Source: a virus. Taken from it: a DNA stretch of 39,809 nt. The translations under genes were made by a program, and so were the position numbers. Positions 58 to 34,900 of this stretch are shown here, piece by piece (within the stretch, counting starts at the first letter, position 1; each line of letters begins with the position of its first letter). The notes under the pieces were generated by a model. It was not told the origin of the DNA. It made no database searches and worked only from the letters and a program-made list of their open reading frames with translations. The stretch lies in IMG/VR virus record IMGVR_UViG_3300031351_000003, positions 1 through 39,809 of that record; one strand, written 5' to 3'.

Positions 58-540
58 TCATGATTCTCCAATCCGCTCCGCGAACTCATCGCGGAGCGTC
101 ATCAGCAACCGCCCGAGGTGGTTTTCGCCCCGAGCACGGCACGCCGGACGGCCGCAGCAGCAGTCCCCCCACGTCTGGTCGTGCCAGCTGTTGCCCTCCA
201 CCAGCACCGCCGGTGCGGTCGCCAGCAACGCGGCCATCCGCACCGGCGAAGCAGCGAACTTCGCCCGCAGCACCCCGGCCATCACCTCGAAGCGCAGCCG
301 GACATCCCAACCGTCGCGCAGCTGCAGCCGCCGGCCGCGCAGCCTCGCCCCCTGCGGCGTCGCCACCCGAGCGATCTCCTCCCGGACGAGAAGGTCGTCG
401 ACCTTCCCGGCCTGGAACGCATGCTCCGCGGTCGGGTAGGTGACGCCCTCCCACCGCACCGGCCAGTGGTGGAAGTTGCTCAGAAACGCCCAGGGGCCCG
501 TGAACCGGGCGATCACGTCGCCCGGTGCGGGCAGATGCAC
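58..540 (-). CDS. NADAR-family N-glycosidase (YbiA-like)
   Basis: The 160-aa product matches the NADAR family, enzymes that cleave N-glycosidic bonds of ADP-ribosylated substrates or riboflavin intermediates. Visible hallmarks are GPWAFLSNF near the N terminus, TAEHAFQAGK about 30 residues on, and the C-terminal LVEGNSWHDQTWG followed by NHLGRLLMTLR. The length is typical. I chose the GTG at 540 because the homologous region begins right after it; the open frame extends upstream to 807 but looks non-coding. It is the last gene of a leftward cluster. In other systems NADAR proteins reverse guanine ADP-ribosylation made by DarT toxins, so an anti-defence role is plausible for a phage, but that is inference. 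The CCCGRPAC cysteine cluster before the last motif is notable. Confidence 0.85.
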   Translation of the reverse strand: MHLPAPGDVIARFTGPWAFLSNFHHWPVRWEGVTYPTAEHAFQAGKVDDLLVREEIARVATPQGARLRGRRLQLRDGWDVRLRFEVMAGVLRAKFAASPVRMAALLATAPAVLVEGNSWHDQTWGDCCCGRPACRARGENHLGRLLMTLRDEFAERIGES

Positions 541-569
541 TCGGGCCGGGCGGGGCGCCAGCGCGCCGC

Positions 570-785
570 TCACGACCCACCGCCAACGGGCTGAGCGGGC
601 GGGCACTGAAGCTTCGAAGGCGCCACCCGGCGCAGACACCGCCTGCACGCCGGCAGCCGCTCGGCAAGCTCGTACTCGTTCTGGGTGCCCGTGCCACGCC
701 AGTCGTCGAACAGCGCGGGGGCGATGCCGCACTCCGCGACCCCCTGGAGGCCGAACCCGTACCGGCGCAGCGCATGCACCACCAC
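570..785 (-). CDS. small hypothetical protein with a CxxC pair
   Basis: I do not recognise the family. The frame encodes about 71 residues from one of three consecutive GTG codons (777-785). It has an ALFDDWRG stretch in the middle and a CRRC motif near residue 47-50, with further cysteines at 19 and 61, so zinc binding is possible. It ends 29 bp before the NADAR start and is probably co-transcribed with it. The frame stays open upstream to 965, through the 806-894 direct repeat, so the true start is uncertain. Confidence 0.45.
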   Translation of the reverse strand: MVVHALRRYGFGLQGVAECGIAPALFDDWRGTGTQNEYELAERLPACRRCLRRVAPSKLQCPPAQPVGGGS

Positions 786-805
786 GCCCCGGCGCAGATA
801 CCGCC

Positions 806-894
806 ACTCGACACCCCAGACATGCGGGCGCGGCCGGCCACGTTCTGATGGGCGGAGCGGGGGATACTCGACACCCCCGATGCGCGGGCGCGGC
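806..894 (-). repeat. two 29-bp direct repeats flanking a 31-bp spacer-like segment (mini-CRISPR-like)
   Basis: Positions 806-834 and 866-894 are direct copies with 25 of 29 bases identical and a 60-bp period. Read leftward, each copy starts GCCGCGCCCGC and ends GGGGTGTCGAGT. Repeat length, spacer length and the short CCCG/CGGG stem in one copy resemble type I-E CRISPR units of actinobacteria. The intervening 31 bp (835-865), plus 5 flanking bases, match 32568-32603 of the tail-tip gene exactly. With only two imperfect repeats and no cas genes, the CRISPR reading is a hypothesis. A local duplication combined with capture of tail-gene DNA is the alternative. Confidence 0.55.
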
Positions 895-3439: not shown

Positions 3440-3446
3440 GCAGTGG

Positions 3447-3472
3447 CCGGGGGTGTACATGTACACCCCCGG
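3447..3472. promoter_or_regulatory. 26-bp perfect palindrome (operator and/or terminator)
   Basis: A perfect 26-bp palindrome with core GGTGTACATGTACACC lies 7 bp after the replication gene stop. As RNA it would form an 11-bp stem with a CATG loop, followed by CTTGTTTT, so it could end transcription. The same core recurs at 3618-3633, which points to a protein-binding site. Both roles are possible. Confidence 0.7.
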
Positions 3473-3813
3473 CTTGTTTTCAACAACATTCTAAGATCAT
3501 CTATCTCTGTCACAGAACTAAGATCATCAGTGTTCTTACCTCATAGTATTTACTCTTATTAATATACAATTGTTGATTATATATAAGGATGATCAACTTC
3601 TGATTGAAAAATCCAGAGGTGTACGCGTACACCCCTGCCATATGGCCTCTGACCTGCGGATACACTGGTGTACACGAAAACTGGGGACGTACCCCCTTGG
3701 TTCATCGATGGAGTGGCGCAGGTCACATCGAGTAACATCGATAGAATCGACCACCGGCCACCACCCCACCCCCGACCTACTGCTCATCACACACAGTCAC
3801 GACAGGAGCAGCC
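3473..3813. other. A+T-rich intergenic island, possible replication origin or control region
   Basis: These 340 bp have no gene. From about 3475 to 3612 the base composition drops to clearly A+T-rich (runs such as TATTAATATACAATTG and TTATATATAAGG) in an otherwise very G+C-rich sequence. It contains a TAAGATCATC direct repeat, GTGTAC palindromes, and several ATCGA motifs near 3705-3750. Position after the replication gene, an easily melted segment and repeated palindromes are what an origin would show, but no test is possible here. Confidence 0.5.
3614..3637. promoter_or_regulatory. second GTGTAC palindrome
   Basis: A 24-bp palindrome with a single mismatch pair and perfect 16-bp core GGTGTACGCGTACACC. 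It shares the outer GGTGTAC/GTACACC half-sites with the 3447-3472 palindrome. A half-site GGTGTACAC and a degenerate GGGGACGTACCCCC follow within 70 bp, so the region has up to four related sites. Confidence 0.65.
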
Positions 3814-9568: not shown

Positions 9569-10507
9569 ATGCGCAAGCTGCTTGCTGCGGCCGGAACCGG
9601 CGCGCTGCTCGCACTCACCCTGCCCGCTGCGGCACAGGCCACCGGCCCTGCCCCCAACCAGTGGGACGGCAACGTCACCGTCACCGGCGCCAGTGCCTAC
9701 GACGGCAAGTGCGTTCCCTGGAACGTCAAGACGGTCGACATCGCCTGGACGTTCGCCCGCAACGGCAACGACGCCGGCAGCAAGTACAACATCGCCGCCG
9801 TCAACGGCGCCGGCGTGAAGCTCAAGCCCGCCAAGGACATCGAGGCGAACCACGAGGCCACCGGCGTGCAGCCCGGCGCCAAGCCCGGCGAGACGTACAC
9901 CATCACGGCGGTCGGCGGCACGTCGACCAACACGGCCAGCGGGACGTACACCGTCCCGCAGCACTGCAACGCCTGGACTTCGGACCGGGTCAGCCTGACC
10001 GGTGTGGTGCGCCCGGCCCCCGCTGGTGACTGCCTGACCGACATCAAGAACCTGCGGGTCGTCTGGACGCTGAAGCTGCTCAACGGCGATGCGATCACGG
10101 TCGGCGGTACCAGCGTCGGCCTGGACCCCAGCAGGATCGTTAAGGGCGCCAAGATCGCGAGCAAGGGGCAGAGGCTCACCGGCGCACAGAAGGGCGTCCA
10201 GCCGGGCGACAGCGTCACGCTGCGCGTCACGGGCAGCTACGCCGTCAACTGGGTCGAGGCCACGGTGCCCGTGCCGGCGCTCTGCCCCAGCCCGTCCAGC
10301 GGCACCCCGGCCACGGGAGGCGCCCCGACCGGGTCCGGCTCGCCCTCGATGCCCCCGATGGTCAACGTCAGTGACAACGGCAGCCTGCCCGTCACCGGCT
10401 GGCCGCTGACCCTGACCATCGTCGGCGGGGTGCTCCTGCTCCTGACCGGCACCCTCCTGGTCGCCGTGACCTGGCGCCGCCGGGACCGCATCCGGTTCCA
10501 GGCGTAA
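9569..10507 (+). CDS. secreted cell-wall-anchored protein (LPVTG sortase signal)
   Basis: A 312-aa protein with an N-terminal signal peptide (basic MRK, hydrophobic core, AQA cleavage site near residue 24), then two related domains of about 110 residues with paired cysteines, and a Ser/Pro/Gly-rich stalk. A complete sorting signal follows: LPVTG at 273-277, a hydrophobic helix and the basic tail WRRRDRIRFQA. It should be exported and attached to peptidoglycan by a host class E/A-type sortase. This is a host-altering cargo gene rather than a virion gene. Superinfection exclusion or altered surface adhesion are possible roles, by inference. It has its own promoter and terminator. Confidence 0.8.
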   Translation: MRKLLAAAGTGALLALTLPAAAQATGPAPNQWDGNVTVTGASAYDGKCVPWNVKTVDIAWTFARNGNDAGSKYNIAAVNGAGVKLKPAKDIEANHEATGVQPGAKPGETYTITAVGGTSTNTASGTYTVPQHCNAWTSDRVSLTGVVRPAPAGDCLTDIKNLRVVWTLKLLNGDAITVGGTSVGLDPSRIVKGAKIASKGQRLTGAQKGVQPGDSVTLRVTGSYAVNWVEATVPVPALCPSPSSGTPATGGAPTGSGSPSMPPMVNVSDNGSLPVTGWPLTLTIVGGVLLLLTGTLLVAVTWRRRDRIRFQA

Positions 10508-12140: not shown

Positions 12141-13805
12141 GTGTCCGCCCCACCCACCCTGGTCGACCCGTACCACCCCGAGGTCACCGCCGGGAACTTC
12201 GACGTCGGGCGGTGGATCGCGCAGTTCGACGAGCGGCTGTTGAGGCTGCCGGAAGGCCGACGGCTGCTCACCAGGCTCGACCCCATGCTGTTCGCCCTGG
12301 TGTACCTGCGCCACCACCTGGCCAGCGACGACACCGGCGGTGAGATCACCTACGCGGACTGCCACTTTGCGTGGTACCGGCTCATGCGCACCTGGGTGCG
12401 TCGCGAGCGGTCGCCGCGGGGCTGGCGGCACGCGTTCGCGGCGCCACGGTCCGCCGCGAAATCCACCCACTGGTTCCTGTTCGCCCCGGTGTGGGCCGGT
12501 GCTCACGGCCACGCCCGGTTCATCGCCGCGTTTGCGGACTCCGGCACTCAGGCGGAGATGCACCTGCAGACGTTCCGGTCCGAACTTGCCCACAACCCGT
12601 TGCTGCGCAGCGACTACCCGGAGTTCTGCCGCGCGATGCGCAAGCCGACCGGACGTACGGTTGCCGACAACGAGGGCATGTACCAGTGCTGCAACGGGTT
12701 CGTCTTCGCGGCCAGAGGTGCCGACACGGCCACCCTCGGCATGAAGGTGTCCGAGCGGCGTCCGGACGTGCTCCTGCTCGACGATGTGGAGAAGCACGAG
12801 GCGCTGTACAGCCTCGATATGGTTGCCAAACGTAAAGAGACGATCGTCAATGCAATCTTCCCGCTGAACGAGCGCGCGAGGGTCGTCATCGTCGGCACCG
12901 TCACCCGCCCCGGCTCGCTCGTGCACCAGCTGGTGCAGATCGCCGACCGGCAGGCCGAACCGACCGGCGACCACGCCTGGATCCGCGAAGAGCGGATCGT
13001 CGCCCACCACCACCTACCGATCGTCGACGGCCGGGACGGGCGCCGCTCGATCTGGCCGGCCAAGTGGCCGCTCGACTACCTCGAATCCATCGAGGGAACC
13101 AGAAGTTACGATTTGAACTTCCGGTGTGACCCGTCCGAAACCGACGGCGAGTACTGGTCGTCCACCGACTTCCTGCGCGGCGTCCCCGGCCCCATCGGGC
13201 GTATCTACTGCTGGGTCGACCCGCCGGTCACCACCAAGAAAGGCTCCGACCCGGCCGGCATCGCCATCGTCGGCTACCTGCCCGAAGGCATTGTCGACGC
13301 CGACGAGGCGGTCGAAGGGCTGCCCGCCGAGCACCAGCGCCTGGTCAGGGCCCGGCTGAAGCTGCAGCGCCGTGGCGGCCGGTCGCTGCCTGGCGCGATC
13401 GTGCTGCACGCCGAGGAGGTGCGCCTGACCGGCCGGCCGCTGATGCGGCACGTCGCCGCGACGATCACCCGGTTTTCGGCAGCGAGCGGCTGGCGGGTCC
13501 GCGGTGTCCTGGCCGAAGCCAACCAGGGCGGTGACCTGTGGACCGAGGCCGCCGAGGACCTGGCGCTGCCGTTCCGCACGTTCACGTCGAGCGCCCCGAA
13601 GGACGTGCGGTTCAAGCTGGCGCTCGACTACTACCAGGCGGGCCGGGTGGTGCATGTCGGCCCGCTGCCCGCACTGGAGCGCCAGATGCTGGCGTGGCCG
13701 AGGGTCTCTCATGATGATGTGATCGATGGCGCGACGCAGGGCATTCTGGCGTTTCTGGAGCCGGTGGCGCCGGGGAAGCGATCGAAGACGATCTTCCCTT
13801 CATGA
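12141..13805 (+). CDS. terL: large terminase subunit
   Basis: A 554-aa packaging motor. A deviant Walker A, APRSAAKST, is at residues 101-109. Walker B, VLLLDDVE, is at about 210-217, with the downstream coupling motif VIVGTVT. The C-terminal nuclease part has WVDPPVTTKKGSDPAGIAIVGY near residue 355 and a late acidic HDDVIDGATQ motif near 530, consistent with an RNase H-like fold. The GTG start gives a normal length. A strong palindrome follows the stop. Confidence 0.88.
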   Translation: MSAPPTLVDPYHPEVTAGNFDVGRWIAQFDERLLRLPEGRRLLTRLDPMLFALVYLRHHLASDDTGGEITYADCHFAWYRLMRTWVRRERSPRGWRHAFAAPRSAAKSTHWFLFAPVWAGAHGHARFIAAFADSGTQAEMHLQTFRSELAHNPLLRSDYPEFCRAMRKPTGRTVADNEGMYQCCNGFVFAARGADTATLGMKVSERRPDVLLLDDVEKHEALYSLDMVAKRKETIVNAIFPLNERARVVIVGTVTRPGSLVHQLVQIADRQAEPTGDHAWIREERIVAHHHLPIVDGRDGRRSIWPAKWPLDYLESIEGTRSYDLNFRCDPSETDGEYWSSTDFLRGVPGPIGRIYCWVDPPVTTKKGSDPAGIAIVGYLPEGIVDADEAVEGLPAEHQRLVRARLKLQRRGGRSLPGAIVLHAEEVRLTGRPLMRHVAATITRFSAASGWRVRGVLAEANQGGDLWTEAAEDLALPFRTFTSSAPKDVRFKLALDYYQAGRVVHVGPLPALERQMLAWPRVSHDDVIDGATQGILAFLEPVAPGKRSKTIFPS

Positions 13806-13807
13806 TC

Positions 13808-13884
13808 GAAAACCTCGAGGTTTTCCAGCCAAGAGGCGCGGTCGCGCGCCGTGCCGGGGCAGGCAGGGCATGCCCCGGCACGGC
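13808..13884 (+). terminator. palindrome and hairpin after terL
   Basis: An 18-bp perfect palindrome (GAAAACCTCGAGGTTTTC, 13808-13825) lies 2 bp after the stop. A 14-bp perfect stem with a 9-nt loop (13848-13884, starting GCCGTGCCGGGGCA) follows. Together they probably terminate terminase transcription and insulate the non-coding region. Confidence 0.65.
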
Positions 13885-14015
13885 GTGGCTGGGCGCGGCG
13901 AGGTGAGGCGGGCGCGGCAAGGCTCGGCGTGACAAGGCAAGGCGCGGCGAGGCGGGGCAGCCAGGGCATAGCAGGGCAAGGCGGGGCGAGGTGTGGCATG
14001 GCGAGGCGGGGCGGC
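13885..14015. repeat. degenerate pentanucleotide satellite (GGC-rich)
   Basis: About 130 bp read as 5-bp units of the form AGGCR (for example AGGCAAGGCGCGGCGAGGCG) with many substitutions. G-run spacing would allow G-quadruplex formation on the rightward strand. No supported gene covers it on either strand; a long leftward open frame here is a by-product of the repeat. Confidence 0.6.
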
Positions 14016-14049: not shown

Positions 14050-14224
14050 GTCCGGCCGCGAGCGGTCCGACACGGTTCCCTGTATACTTAACCGCTCGCG
14101 CCCTGGTCAGAGCCGGTTTCGTAGCTTGACACGTTCATAGTCCGGCCGATAAGTTGATCACTGCCGTGAGGTGCTCGCAGCGGCCCGTAAACCCGCAGCT
14201 CAACGGCCCCGGACTTCCGGAGCC
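14050..14224 (+). promoter_or_regulatory. leader-like segment upstream of the CRISPR array
   Basis: It contains a 10-bp inverted repeat (14057-14066 with 14091-14100) whose loop holds TATACTTAA. A TTGACA (14126-14131) is followed after 17-18 bp by ATAAGTT, which could drive rightward transcription into the array about 60 bp later. GTCCGGCCG occurs twice. The segment is less G+C-rich than its surroundings, as CRISPR leaders often are. Confidence 0.5.
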
Positions 14225-14496
14225 GTCTTCCTGGTCTTCGTGACCGGGCTCAATTGCAGGCAGCCGGACTCGCGGGCGTCGGCCATGAGCCCCGCGTCTT
14301 CCTGGTCTTCGTGACCGGGCTCAATTGCAGGAGGTTGGTGAGCGTCGCTTCGGCCAGGCGGGTCTTGAGTCTTCCTGGTCTTCGTGACCGGGCTCAATTG
14401 CAGGACGGCGGCCATCGTCCCGTCCGCCTCGACCCTACCGTCTTCCCGGTCTTCGTGACCGGGCTCAATTGCGGGGCGACCGGGCTCAGTTGCGGG
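14225..14496 (+). CRISPR. phage-borne mini-CRISPR array: 4 repeats, 3 spacers
   Basis: Repeats of 36 bp start at 14225, 14296, 14369 and 14440. Each begins GTCTTCC and ends CTCAATTGC(A/G)GG. The first three are identical; the fourth has two substitutions. Spacers are 14261-14295 (35 nt), 14332-14368 (37 nt) and 14405-14439 (35 nt), all unrelated to each other. Each repeat can form a CCTGGTC/GACCGGG stem. In the fourth, T to C turns a G-U pair into G-C. A 19-bp degenerate 3' fragment (14478-14496) follows, marking this as the old, leader-distal end. The ATTGCAGG end resembles the ATTGAAA(C/G) ends of many type I and III repeats. No cas gene is in the window. Confidence 0.88.
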
Positions 14497-14528: not shown

Positions 14529-14608
14529 AACGGGTCACCCCCCGGCCGGTACGGGCCCGTACCGGCCCCTACCCGTTACGCTGTCGATCGAGACCACCGG
14601 ATCGACAG
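14529..14608. promoter_or_regulatory. nested palindromes before the portal gene
   Basis: A 24-bp perfect palindrome (14544-14567, core TACGGGCCCGTA) is bracketed by AACGGGT (14529) and ACCCGTT (14571), so arms nest around one centre region. TACGCT at 14577 looks like a -10 used elsewhere in this genome. A 9-bp hairpin (CTGTCGATC/GATCGACAG, 14581-14608) lies next to the portal ribosome-binding site. It is probably a promoter with operator or a terminator/leader. Confidence 0.5.
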
Positions 14609-14622
14609 TGCAGGGGGTAGCC

Positions 14623-16245
14623 GTGACGGCGACAGCGGATCTCCTGGCCGGCTATCGCGAACTCAACGACTCCCGCGACGCATTGAACATCGCCGACGAC
14701 TTCTACGAGGGCGCCGGCATCGAGGTCTTCGCCAACCGGCGCGTCAAGCGCCTGTTCGCCCGGCTCGGCGTGGAGACCGTCGAGGACTTCGCATACGCCG
14801 CCATCCCCGTCAAGGTCATCTCAGCCGGTTTGCGCCAGCTCCTCCCCGCCGTCAGCACCGCCACCGGAACCCCCGCCGAGCAGGCAGAACAGCGCCTACA
14901 CGACCTCATCGAACGCAACGAGCTGGGCCCAGAGCTGCGCCACCTGTGGAAGCTCGTCAGCCGCTACGGTGACGCCTACCTGCTCGTCTGGCCCGTCCGT
15001 GACGAGCGGGACCGGATCGTCGACGTCGACATCGTCGTCAACTCGCCCCACACCACCCGGGCCATCTACGACCCGGAGCAGCCGCTACGCATCGCCTACG
15101 TGATCCGCTCATGGCAGCAGGGCGCCGCGGTCCGCGCGAACATCTACTACTCCGACCGGGTCGAGAAGTGGTGGTGCCCGCCCGGCTGCCGCCCGGACAA
15201 CCCGGAGCTGTGGGAGCGCTGGCCGGAGGACCCCGACGACATCCCGGTCGAAGGCGGCCGGGTGCCGTTCTTCCACTTCCGCAACGACCGCCCGTACGGC
15301 GCCCCGGAGCATGAGGCCACCTACGGGCCCCAGCGCCTGCTCAACAAGCTTGTGTCGAGCCTGGGGGCGATCACGGACTTCCAGGTGGCGCCGCAGCGTT
15401 ACTACATGGCCGACGCGAAGGTCGACGACCCGCTGCAGAACTTCACCGACCCGGACGAGCCTGACGACGACGATGAGGATCCGCAGGGCGAGACGGATTC
15501 GCCGCTGTCCAGCGACCCGCAGTCCGTGTGGAAGCTGTACGGGCGCAACGCCGGCCAGTTCGAGCCGGCCGACCCGGAGCGGATCCTCAAGCCGTTCGAC
15601 CGGTGCATCCAGGCCATGTCGGAACTGTCCGGGATCCCCCGGCACCACTTCGGATGGGGCACCGGCGAGACGCCCAGCGGCGCGGCCCTGCGTACCCTCG
15701 ACCGGCCGCGGGTCGAGATCGTCGACGACCGTAAGGATGCCTACGGCCCCACCCTGCGTGGCGCCTACGAGTACGCCCTGGCCCTGCTCGGCGTCACTGA
15801 TGTGCGGGTGGCGGTCCGCTGGAGACCCACCATGGTGATCACCGACCTGGAGGGTTGGCAGATCGTCGCCGCGAAGGTGGCTAGTGGTGTGCCGGCCCGT
15901 CACGCACTCATCGAGGCCGGGTATCTGCCGGAGAACGTTGATGCGTGGCTGCAGGACGCGTCCGGGTCGAGTGTGGAACACCGGCTGCAGCTTCTGCAGC
16001 TCCTCATCACGGTCGCTGGCGGTGGGAAGCCGGCCGCCGCGCCGGCCGCCGCGCCGGCCGCCGGTGCTCAACCGTCTGCCGACGCGCCGCTCGCCGGTGC
16101 CCAGTCGCCCGCCAAACCGCCGCCCGCCGACGCGCCGCTCGCTGACGCCCGGCCGCCGCAGGCCGACACCACGATCATCACGCCGGAACTCGCCGCCAGA
16201 CTGCTCGACCGGATCCTGGCCGGCATGGACGACACCACCAGGTAG
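14623..16245 (+). CDS. portal protein (SPP1 gp6-like)
   Basis: A 540-aa protein that should form the dodecameric ring at the capsid vertex. Typical features are the helical N terminus, IPVKVISAGLRQLL, a KLVSRYGDAYLLVWP segment, VPFFHFRN, and the late LSGIPRHHFGWGTGETPSGAALR motif found in actinophage portals. The last 70 residues are an Ala/Pro-rich low-complexity tail, with a 27-bp near-repeat encoding ADAPLA(G/D)A, before a short helix. GTG 14623 with GGGGG upstream is preferred to the GTG five codons earlier. Confidence 0.85.
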   Translation: MTATADLLAGYRELNDSRDALNIADDFYEGAGIEVFANRRVKRLFARLGVETVEDFAYAAIPVKVISAGLRQLLPAVSTATGTPAEQAEQRLHDLIERNELGPELRHLWKLVSRYGDAYLLVWPVRDERDRIVDVDIVVNSPHTTRAIYDPEQPLRIAYVIRSWQQGAAVRANIYYSDRVEKWWCPPGCRPDNPELWERWPEDPDDIPVEGGRVPFFHFRNDRPYGAPEHEATYGPQRLLNKLVSSLGAITDFQVAPQRYYMADAKVDDPLQNFTDPDEPDDDDEDPQGETDSPLSSDPQSVWKLYGRNAGQFEPADPERILKPFDRCIQAMSELSGIPRHHFGWGTGETPSGAALRTLDRPRVEIVDDRKDAYGPTLRGAYEYALALLGVTDVRVAVRWRPTMVITDLEGWQIVAAKVASGVPARHALIEAGYLPENVDAWLQDASGSSVEHRLQLLQLLITVAGGGKPAAAPAAAPAAGAQPSADAPLAGAQSPAKPPPADAPLADARPPQADTTIITPELAARLLDRILAGMDDTTR

Positions 16246-20643: not shown

Positions 20644-21423
20644 GTGTCGCAGCTTATCCCGTCCGCCGCCGGCGGGCACGGCGAGGCGCCGTCGCCGTTC
20701 GAGTTCGACGGTGAGCGCATCGGTGTTGTCCTGGTCGACGGGGAGCCGTGGTTTGTCGGCTCCGACCTGGCGCGGATCTTGGAGTATGGCGATGCCACTC
20801 ACGCGCTGCGATCGGTTCGTGACAGAAACAAGGGTCTCCACAAAATGGAGACCCCCTCTGGCCTGCAAGAAAAGCTCTGCGTCAATGAGCCCGGCCTCTA
20901 TCAGCTGATCATGCGCTCCCGGTCGGAACGCGCCGAAGCGTTCCAGGACTGGGTGACTGACGAGGTGTTGCCTCGGATCCGCAAGACCGGCGGCTACGGC
21001 ACTCCGCCGCCACCTGCCCTGCCGGCTGACTACGCAAGCGCCCTGCGCGCCCTGGCCGACACTGTCGAGCGCGCCGAGATCGAGCAGCGCCGCGCCGAAC
21101 TGGCCGAGTCCGACAACCGCACGCTGGAAGCCCGCGTCGAAATCGCCGCACCGAAGGTGGAGGTGTACGACGCCCTGTACAGCACCGAGGGGTTCCAGCC
21201 GTTCGACGCGTTCGCCAAGACGGGCAGGCTCCCCGGGCCCATAACCCTGCGGAACTGGCTGCGGGGGAAAGGGATCATCCGCCTGGACGGGCTCCCGAGG
21301 CAGGAGTACGTCACCAGCAGACGCTGGTTCGTGGTCCGCGGGGTGCGGGACCTGTACGTGACGCGTCGTGGCCAGATTGCGATCCTCCAGCTCTGGAACC
21401 ACGGCCGGACAGACGAGACGTGA
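20644..21423 (+). CDS. BRO-N domain antirepressor-like protein
   Basis: A 259-aa two-domain protein. Residues about 15-110 are a Bro-N domain (EPWFVGSDLARILEYGDATHAL, then NEPGLYQLIMRSRSERAEAF and WVTDEVLPRIRKTGGYG). Residues about 160-250 match the phage antirepressor (ANT/KilAC) domain with LRNWLRGKGII and VTRRGQIAIL. Such proteins bind DNA or repressors to favour lytic growth. Finding it inside the head module, with its own upstream terminator, suggests an independently regulated insert. GTG 20644 follows GCGGAGG. Confidence 0.85.
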   Translation: MSQLIPSAAGGHGEAPSPFEFDGERIGVVLVDGEPWFVGSDLARILEYGDATHALRSVRDRNKGLHKMETPSGLQEKLCVNEPGLYQLIMRSRSERAEAFQDWVTDEVLPRIRKTGGYGTPPPPALPADYASALRALADTVERAEIEQRRAELAESDNRTLEARVEIAAPKVEVYDALYSTEGFQPFDAFAKTGRLPGPITLRNWLRGKGIIRLDGLPRQEYVTSRRWFVVRGVRDLYVTRRGQIAILQLWNHGRTDET

Positions 21424-27517: not shown

Positions 27518-28102
27518 GTGGGTGTCGTAACCCCGTACCAGGTGATTGTTGGCCCCGCCGATCTGTACCTCGGCGACTACGGAGCGACCGAGCCGGCCGA
27601 CACGGCGGTCAACTCGACGCCGGCCGCATCGGCGTGGGACCCGCTGGGTTCCACCCAGGACGGTACGACCCTGAACGTGGAGCAGTCGTTCTACACGGTC
27701 AGCGTCGACCAGATCAATGACCCGGTCGGGAGCGTTCCGACGTCCCGCGCGGTCAAGGTGCAGACCAACCTGGCCGAAGCGACGCTGGAGAACCTCCAGT
27801 ACGCCCTCAACGACGGGGCGACGATCAGCAGTGGCAGCGGGTACCGGTCGCTGGAGCCGGAGGCCGACGGTGACGAGATGCACCCGACGTACAAGGCGCT
27901 GCTGGTGCACGGGTACGCCCCGGCGGACGCCGATGGCACGTCCCGGCGCCGCATGATCGTCATCCGGAAGGTCTTGAACGTCGACAACGTCGGCGTCCCG
28001 TACAAGAAGGACGGCACCACGGTGGTCCCGGTGACGCTGCTGGGGCACTACGTGTCCAGTTCCACCAAACCGTACAAGATCATCGACGAGGTCAGTGCCT
28101 GA
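27518..28102 (+). CDS. major tail (tube) protein
   Basis: A 194-aa protein preceding the tail chaperones. It begins VTPYQVIVGPADLYLGDYGA and has KVQTNLAEATLENLQYALND and VPYKKDGTTVVPVTLLGHYV, typical of actinophage tube proteins. GTG 27518 has AGGAGGG upstream. Codons 81-93 (27759-27795) match CRISPR spacer 2 in reverse complement at 29 of 37 bases. The gene has its own terminator. Confidence 0.82.
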   Translation: MGVVTPYQVIVGPADLYLGDYGATEPADTAVNSTPAASAWDPLGSTQDGTTLNVEQSFYTVSVDQINDPVGSVPTSRAVKVQTNLAEATLENLQYALNDGATISSGSGYRSLEPEADGDEMHPTYKALLVHGYAPADADGTSRRRMIVIRKVLNVDNVGVPYKKDGTTVVPVTLLGHYVSSSTKPYKIIDEVSA

Positions 28103-31996: not shown

Positions 31997-34900
31997 CCGT
32001 CAACCTCGCATACTCGACCGTCGACGTCTCCCTGACCCTGCAGGACCTGTACTGGGCAAACATAGTGGCCGGGTCCGGGACGTTCGGCGGGTCCGCCGGA
32101 CCGGCCGACCTGCTGTGGGGGCAGGGCCTGTGGGTTGGGCACTACTACATCGCGAAAGAGCTGTTCCTGTCGTTCTCGTTCTCGCTGGTTGCCGACGAGG
32201 ACGCCATCTCCGCGTCGGTCCGGCTGTCGGCGACCTCCGCCCTGAACACCGCGGTCTCCCGAACCCTCGACATCGCCGAGTACGCCTGGTCCGGCGGGTA
32301 CAGCACCAGCGACTGGCGCACCCCAGCCCAACTGGCCGCCCTGTCACCCCTCGGGGTGGTTGAAAACGCCCAGAACGCCGGATCCCGATACATGGAAGCC
32401 GGCTCCGACCTGCTCACGGCCAGGGTCGCCACCGGCACCTCCCCGCTGAAGCTGGTGCTGTACTCCAACCGGTGGGCCGGGGCGATCACCCCGACCGTCG
32501 ACGAGACCTGCACGATCGCCGGCACCGCCACCGCCGGCACCAGCTACGACCCGTGTCTACGCTGGCTGAGTATCCCCCGCTCCGCCCATCAGAACGTGGC
32601 CGGTGCGCAGGTCCAGCTGTCGGACTACTCGTGGGCGTACCTGCAGTCGGACGGCGCCGCCGCCCCAACCATCACGCTGCGCCGCTGCACCACCGGCGGG
32701 AGCGTGACGACGCTCGCGACCGTCCCGACCGGCGTCAGTTCCACAGACTTCGCCGTCCCGGGCAGCATGCAGGCGCTGGCGCTCACCGTCGACGCGTCGG
32801 ACAACCTGTACGTGATCGGCGCGCAGGGCTCCAACCGGGCCGCGCTCGCCGCCAGGGCGTACGTGAAAGGCGCCGGCACCACCTGGACGGCGCAGACCCT
32901 GCTGGCGTCCGCCCTGCCCGCGTACACCGGCGCCGGGGTCAACCAGGCGGCGGCGGCGTGGCACAACACCGGCACGTCGGGAACCATCCTGGCGGTCGCG
33001 ATGCGCGGGGTCGGCTGGGGCGCTGTCACCCCCGACCAGGATGCCCAGTACGCCCTGCTGAACTGTGCGTCTCTGCTCGCCGGATCCGGGACGCTGTTCC
33101 GGGGGTCCGGATCGGCCCTGGGGGTGCTGGTCCCGACCGGCGCCGACACGTCGAACGACTACACCCACCCGTGCAACCAGTCCGGCACCTCCCTGGATGT
33201 CGTCGCAGCCCCGGACGACCCGCTGCGCGGGTACGTCCAGACCGTGACCAGGGTCGGGCAGCCAGGTGACGACGAACCGACCGGGGTGTACCGGTACGTG
33301 CTGGCCGCCGGGGGCACCGGCATCCCCTACTACGTTCAGATGAATTCCGCATGGGGTGTGAAAGACCCCATGGCGAAGGCCCGCGTCTTGACCCCTGGGC
33401 AGGGGATCGCACTCGCGGTCTCGGCCGACTCGGACACCCTGTGGGGTATCTGCCTGGCTGCGTCGCAGAACATCGGTACTGGCGGCGGATACACCGAGTT
33501 GACATACGTGGCCATGAGCAACTATGGAATCACGTCAATGCCGGACGAGGCCGACCTGGCGGTGTCGTCGGCGTGGGACGCCCACTACGACCCGATCGAC
33601 AACAAGCTGTGGATCTACTACGTCGACGTGGCGGACGACCGGCGGATCCTACGGACCGGCATCGACCTGAACACCTGGCTGCCGACGATGGAAGAGACCG
33701 AGGTCGCCGCCAGCGTGGGCAGCGCGGGATCGACCGTCACGTCCCTGCGGGTGGCCCGCGGCTATGCCACCGGTGACGCGGTCCTGGTACACCTCGCCCT
33801 GGACACCTCCGGGACACCGTCGTCCCAGCTGGTCGTCGACAGCCTGAACAAGGCCCCGACCGCGCCGACGCTCACGCCGAAGGTGAATTTCGACGCCGAC
33901 GACGACGCCGACTTCGAGTGGACGTTCAACGACCCAAACAGTTCGGACTCGCAGAGCGCATACCAGCTGCAGATCGTCGACGTCTCCGACGGCAGTCTCG
34001 ACGTCAACCCCGGGAAGACCACCTCCGGGACCGAGTCGTACACCCTGTCCGGCGGCACCATCGCCAACGAGGGCTCCTACCAGTGGCGGGTCAGGACGTA
34101 CGACTCCGACGACCAGGTCAGCCCCTGGTCGACATACGGGACGTTCCAGACCTCGGCCAGCGGGACCGTCACGATCACCGACCCCGCGAGCGACAACCCG
34201 GCCGGGGTCATCACCAACGACTACACGATCAGCTGGTCGGTCGCCGGAACCACCCAGGCCGACTACCGGGTCGTCACGACCCGTACCGACACCTCCGCAG
34301 AACTGGACGACAGCGGGTGGGTCTCCTCGGCCAGCACCAGCTACACGGTCGAGGGGATGCTGTCGGACGTCGAGTACCAGGTCGCCGTCACCGTTCGCAA
34401 CGCCGCTGAGGTCGAGTCCGGCACCGGCACCAGGCTGATCACCCCGGTGTACTCCTCGCCGGACGTACCGACCCTCGCCCTGGTCGGCTACGGCGGGACG
34501 CTGCAACCCTCCCCGTACCTGGGTGGGTACATCGAGGTCGACGTGACCAACCCCGCGCCGTCCGGGGACCGGCCCGATCCGACATCCAACACGATCTACC
34601 GGCGCCAATCCGGGGCCACCTCGTGGACTGCCATCGCATCGGTCGACCCGGACGCGACCTACCTGGACTACGCCGCCGGGTCCGGGACCACCTACGAGTA
34701 CCTGGTGCGGGCCGTCGCGGACGACGGGTCGTACACCGACTCCGAGACGGACACCGCCAGCATCACCTTGCGTGGGGTGTGGCTGCACGACCCGCTCGAC
34801 CCTGCCGGGACCGTTATCCGGCTGCCGTACGGGAAAGCCTCACGTAGCGCCAAGGTCGACCCGACGATGGGCGGGACGCTCTACGTCGGGCGGACCTACC

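Follow-up and report, generated by a model that had tools for sequence, protein, structure and literature searches.

A cas-less CRISPR array in an actinobacterial tailed phage carries a spacer homologous to the tail tube genes of related phages

A CRISPR array between the terminase and portal genes

The window, i.e. the whole 39.8-kb stretch of DNA analysed here (39,809 nucleotides), is an IMG/VR virus record (IMGVR_UViG_3300031351_000003) with a GC content of 69.5%; no end repeats were reported for it. Between the genes for the terminase large subunit (TerL) and the portal protein lies a CRISPR array (14225-14475), which consists of four regular direct repeats of 36 nt with three unique spacers between them. 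The region contains the following features.

12141..13805, + strand: terminase large subunit, TerL (PHROG 38, E=1.4e-49)
14126..14155, + strand: candidate leader promoter (TTGACA-N18-TAAGTT), the end of which lies 70 nt upstream of repeat 1
14225..14260, + strand: CRISPR repeat 1, 36 nt, with the hairpin CCTGGTC-TTCGT-GACCGGG (7 bp)
14261..14295, + strand: spacer 1, 35 nt, without a match
14296..14331, + strand: CRISPR repeat 2
14332..14368, + strand: spacer 2, 37 nt, antisense to the tail tube genes of the phage family
14369..14404, + strand: CRISPR repeat 3
14405..14439, + strand: spacer 3, 35 nt, without a match
14440..14475, + strand: CRISPR repeat 4, terminal and slightly degenerate, followed by a partial repeat-like stretch (GCGACCGGGCTCAGTTGCGGG)
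14608..16245, + strand: portal protein (PHROG 104 and Pfam SPP1_portal)

Repeats 1 to 3 are identical (GTCTTCCTGGTCTTCGTGACCGGGCTCAATTGCAGG), and repeat 4 has two changes. Subtype I-G (formerly I-U) and type III were considered as possible CRISPR types: the repeat is 36 nt long with a central hairpin, and its 3' end, GGCTCAATTGCAGG, bears a loose resemblance to GGCCTCATTGAAGC of a type I-U array (PMC5944118). Neither a Cas1 search nor PADLOC and Pfam scans of 42 ORFs revealed cas genes in the window, which may be an incomplete contig; a CARF match obtained with PADLOC was discarded, as it covered only a LuxR-type HTH segment. Rfam contained no RNA family matching this array or the array of a relative described below.

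The array sits in a gap of 802 nt between the TerL and portal genes. Since the same gap has a median length of only about 20-30 nt in 105 loci of related phages, most of which have no more than a few tens of nt there, the array is part of an acquired insert. The candidate promoter in its leader is one of three TTGAC.-N16-18-TA...T sites on both strands of the whole window, and it was not called in a stricter sigma-70 scan. The degeneracy of the last repeat favours transcription in the + direction. The array is probably transcribed on the + strand, in which case the transcript of spacer 2 would be antisense to tail tube mRNA.

Two perfect palindromes, of 24 nt at 14544-14567 (just after the array) and of 28 nt at 3446-3473, might serve as operators or mark the ends of transcription. 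A GC-rich tract of imperfect 5-nt repeats of the GGCRA-GGC type occupies 13864-14012, between TerL and the leader of the array.

Similarity of spacer 2 to the phage's own tail tube gene

Spacer 2 resembles a site in the phage's own late genes, which are relevant here as follows.

27518..28102, + strand: tail tube (major tail) gene, homologous to the one targeted (PHROG 2175, 885 and 117; Pfam Phage_TTP_17 just under the cut-off)
27759..27795, - strand: self site resembling a protospacer (29/37; mismatches at spacer positions 6, 7, 8, 9, 28, 29, 35 and 36)

The first-pass annotation had reported that the reverse complement of spacer 2 aligns to this gene, and recomputing the alignment gave the same coordinates and counts: 29 of the 37 bases are identical at 27759-27795, with an exact run of 18 nt from 27769. 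The next best site for spacer 2 anywhere in the window reached 23/37. The 18-nt run had been judged to be beyond chance, and the maximum obtained with 1000 shuffled versions of spacer 2 in the window was 26/37. When 1000 real 37-mers of the window were compared with the rest of the window, eight reached 28/37 and six reached at least 29/37; these six most likely stem from the array, from its protospacer site and from the 36-nt repeat at 834/32568 (see below).

The reverse reading of spacer 2 encodes KTRLAEATLTN(L), which is the most conserved motif of the tail tube family: when the window's tail tube protein is aligned with its counterparts in Microbacterium and Streptomyces phages, the pattern T.LAE..L.N is invariant. 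The peptides encoded by spacer 2 and by the phage's own gene have LAEATL in common, in frame, as had been noticed at first reading. The phage's own orthologous locus is altered, with mismatches at 8 of the 37 positions; those at positions 6-9 are consecutive and lie near the 5' end of the guide.

Spacer 2 is closer to tail tube genes of related phages

Searches with single sequences found no close relatives of this phage, and the 80 relatives used here were retrieved by a profile search of IMG/VR. Their best matches to spacer 2 are all located at the homologous codons of the tail tube gene and reach 32/37 in three loci (L045, L046 and L027) and 30/37 in many others, compared with at most 25-26/37 for shuffled spacers searched against the relatives. 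At the peptide level, the relatives are identical at 11 of 12 residues (KTTLAEATLTNL), above all shuffles. Across the first nine bases of the guide, the closest relatives show just one or two mismatches, and the self site fits less well. In addition, the best match to spacer 2 among 50,697 annotated phage records (INPHARED, 2.3 Gb) lies in Microbacterium phage Isperia, in its major tail gene, the product of which is a homologue of the window's tail tube protein. The initial proposal that the spacer came from a related phage and that the phage's own copy is different is thus supported by the strong matches of the relatives at the same tail tube codons and with the best INPHARED match in a homologous major tail gene.

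Since several relatives (up to 32/37) are closer to spacer 2 than the phage's own copy (29/37), the spacer is of foreign origin. Judged by homology, it was taken from another, unsampled phage that is related to this one, namely from its tail tube gene at the codons for KTRLAEATLTNL. The check suggested in the first-pass annotation, a perfect protospacer in the tail tube gene of a relative together with a consistent PAM, did not succeed in either collection: INPHARED contained no perfect protospacer for spacer 2 in its 50,697 phage records, and the exact core of the spacer (32 of the 37 bases) with its synonymous versions, used as a pattern in IMG/VR, gave no match in a search that may leave out near-identical records. 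No PAM could be derived from the imperfect matches. Three relatives of the tail tube gene were found in bacterial genomes, none of which was informative on the host.

Searches with the other spacers and the repeat

A target family was identifiable for one of the three spacers only. Pattern searches of IMG/VR for perfect or synonymous protospacers of spacers 1 and 3 gave none (near-identical records may be left out there as well), comparison with annotated phages gave no convincing match, and similarity to 1.1 Mb of sequence from the relatives was at chance level, also for the encoded peptides. The exact repeat was absent from IMG/VR, INPHARED and PLSDB, with weak matches only in the phage and plasmid searches, and one strict pattern of the repeat found no match in 84,980 species genomes (GTDB). 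In Rhodococcus phage Reynauld (OR159659; L237:1498-1533), a 25-nt stretch is 96% identical to the repeat and includes the hairpin; we rejected it as an array, as it occurs alone. This stretch lies just before a small gene and may be a chance hairpin or a solitary repeat unit.

An independent array in a related phage

A scan of about 2.3 Mb of the relatives' loci for arrays identified one further array, in the phage G005 (IMGVR_UViG_3300044466_000036); the other array-like repeats in the relatives turned out to be low-complexity or tandem repeats. The tail tube protein of G005 is 47% identical to that of the window, and its terminase about 50%. Its array (L136:7050-7321) is located about 1.2 kb upstream of the terminase gene and contains five copies of GTCCGCCCCACGCACGTGGGGGTGTTCC and 4 spacers with a period of 61 nt. 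The G005 repeat is identical at 23 of 28 positions to that of an array on a Streptomyces californicus plasmid (NZ_CP070247), which also has a 61-nt period and is situated beside a complete type I-E operon. The 28+33-nt architecture is thus common to the G005 array and such Streptomyces plasmid type I-E arrays, whereas the window's array differs from them in having a 36-nt repeat and spacers of 35-37 nt and is not type I-E-like.

Spacer 3 of G005 matches its own genome at 27/33, with a run of 21 nt, at L136:10967 in a stretch without a clear gene. This match is less exceptional against real 33-mers of the G005 genome, among which such a value is uncommon but not unique, than against shuffles, and we therefore regard it as supporting and not as decisive.

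Proposed function of the array

Virus-borne mini-CRISPR arrays are already known, and the array described here is in an actinobacterial tailed phage. The Sulfolobales portogloboviruses SPV1 and SPV2 carry mini-CRISPR arrays without cas genes, and mutated orthologous loci in the carrier prevent self-targeting (Medvedeva et al. 2019, PMC6858448). According to a 2024 review, most spacers of virus-borne cas-less arrays target related viruses (PMC11656645). Like those of SPV1 and SPV2, the array of the window is a short intergenic viral array without cas genes and with a promoter-like leader (here a candidate), it has a spacer against a close relative (here by homology), and the carrier's own orthologous locus is altered at the matching site. 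It differs from them in that it belongs to a bacterial tailed phage and not to an archaeal virus, that no exact protospacer was found and the repeat could not be matched to a host, and that it targets a structural gene, that of the tail tube, which is located at a distance from the array. With its three spacers, it lies outside the strict mini-CRISPR definition of Medvedeva et al. 2019 (one or two spacers, as in SPV1 and SPV2), and it is therefore placed in the wider class of cas-less phage-borne arrays. Phage-encoded complete CRISPR-Cas systems, such as the type I-F system of ICP1 and those of huge phages, likewise have spacers against competing mobile elements, and they differ from the window in having cas genes.

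We consider it likely that this cas-less array lets the actinobacterial tailed phage use host Cas proteins against a competing relative, its own gene being spared by mismatches. The array transcript would be processed by a CRISPR-Cas system of the host, and the guide loaded into the host Cas complex. The resulting crRNA would then guide this complex to a relative infecting the same cell, at its tail tube gene or mRNA, while the phage's own gene, which differs at 8/37 positions including four consecutive ones (6-9), would escape. The outcome would be CRISPR-mediated exclusion of the competing phage. If the host system were of type I, seed mismatches of this kind would be expected to prevent cutting, as they usually do in that type. 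Cutting of competitors as envisaged in the first-pass annotation would require a Cas system of the host, since none is encoded in the window, and for such use there is strong published precedent (PMC6858448). Inter-phage exclusion via host Cas proteins is thus what we infer, and it is well supported.

An origin of spacer 2 in a related phage would be equally explained if the array were passive cargo, that is, a fragment of a host CRISPR array that was gained by recombination and whose spacers are the host's memory of related phages, useless to the phage itself. The degenerate last repeat and the two spacers without a known target fit this explanation, which we nonetheless regard as unlikely: three repeats are intact, a candidate promoter is present at a suitable distance, a second relative has an independent array of another type, and a functionless insert of 800 nt would be expected to be lost from a compact genome. 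Still less probable is that the repeats act as an RNA anti-CRISPR, i.e. sequester the Cas proteins of the host as decoy crRNAs in the manner of Racrs, the spacer content being incidental. Phage-borne repeats without cas genes are known to behave in this way (PMC10651486, PMC11656645), and they are common to Racrs and the present array; Racrs, however, are solitary repeat units, whereas here four repeats alternate with regular spacers of 35-37 nt, one of which is clearly phage-derived.

The 18 consecutive paired bases and the antisense orientation to the phage's own late mRNA could also point to self-regulation, in which imperfect pairing of the crRNA with the tail tube gene or mRNA of the phage itself would adjust expression of that gene without any cutting. 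This is highly improbable in our view, as spacer 2 fits the relatives better than the self site (32/37 vs 29/37), which argues for a foreign origin, and mismatches are concentrated towards the 5' end of the guide. Finally, a GC-rich spacer might resemble a conserved run of codons by chance, for the GC content of 69.5% raises background similarity and 8 of 1000 real 37-mers attain 28/37. Shuffled spacers never exceeded 26/37, however, the relatives' matches coincide in codon position within homologous genes, and a phage collection of 2.3 Gb yielded a tail tube homologue as the best match. That the matches lie at this position in homologous genes refutes a chance match for practical purposes, and its probability is negligible.

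Exclusion of a competing relative by means of host Cas proteins, our preferred reading, would extend beyond the archaeal viruses, whose cas-less arrays are the best studied in inter-virus exclusion. A spacer traceable to a tail tube gene of the phage's own family and the independent array of a different CRISPR type in a relative suggest repeated use of the strategy among these phages. The proposal is testable in tractable laboratory systems of Streptomyces or Microbacterium.

A second CRISPR-like unit and other genes in the window

At 834-869, the window contains a perfect 36-nt inverted copy of 32568-32603, a part of the phage's own minor tail gene. This copy is flanked by two 29-nt repeats, which are 25/29 identical and 60 nt apart, so that the whole unit extends over 806-894. 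Since the copy in the tail gene aligns with homologues (IPRS..VAGAQV), the one at 834-869 is secondary. Apart from the main array, the repeat pair at 806-894 is the only such pair in the window. Of eight relatives examined for such pairs, seven lack them, and G005 has three in addition to its array, two of these being simple tandem repeats. The unit may be what is left of a CRISPR element with a single spacer directed at the phage itself; against this, its repeats have only a weak resemblance to type I-E repeats, and a plausible ORF on the minus strand overlaps the region. Instead of a CRISPR-like unit whose spacer matches the phage exactly, the copy may be an in-frame insertion into a small ORF. 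That the phage has two CRISPR-like elements of opposite logic, the array at 14225-14475 being directed against rivals and the unit at 806-894 providing a crRNA-like guide to its own late gene (as autoregulation or as a tolerated self-spacer), seems quite improbable.

Several further genes of the window deserve mention. The gene at 58-807 (- strand) encodes a protein with a NADAR domain (Pfam PF08719, E=5e-20) and a relationship to N-glycosidases, which has a sub-threshold match to NCBIfam DS32_2_antiphage and is a possible defence or counter-defence gene. A Bro-N/KilAC antirepressor gene is present among the structural genes at 20644-21423, and no integrase was seen in the window. The gene at 9569-10507 (+ strand) codes for a protein that is predicted to be secreted: it starts with a signal-like segment and ends in an LPVTG-hydrophobic-RRRDR tail, which corresponds to a cell-wall sorting signal; such a product is unusual for a phage and is a candidate surface exclusion protein.
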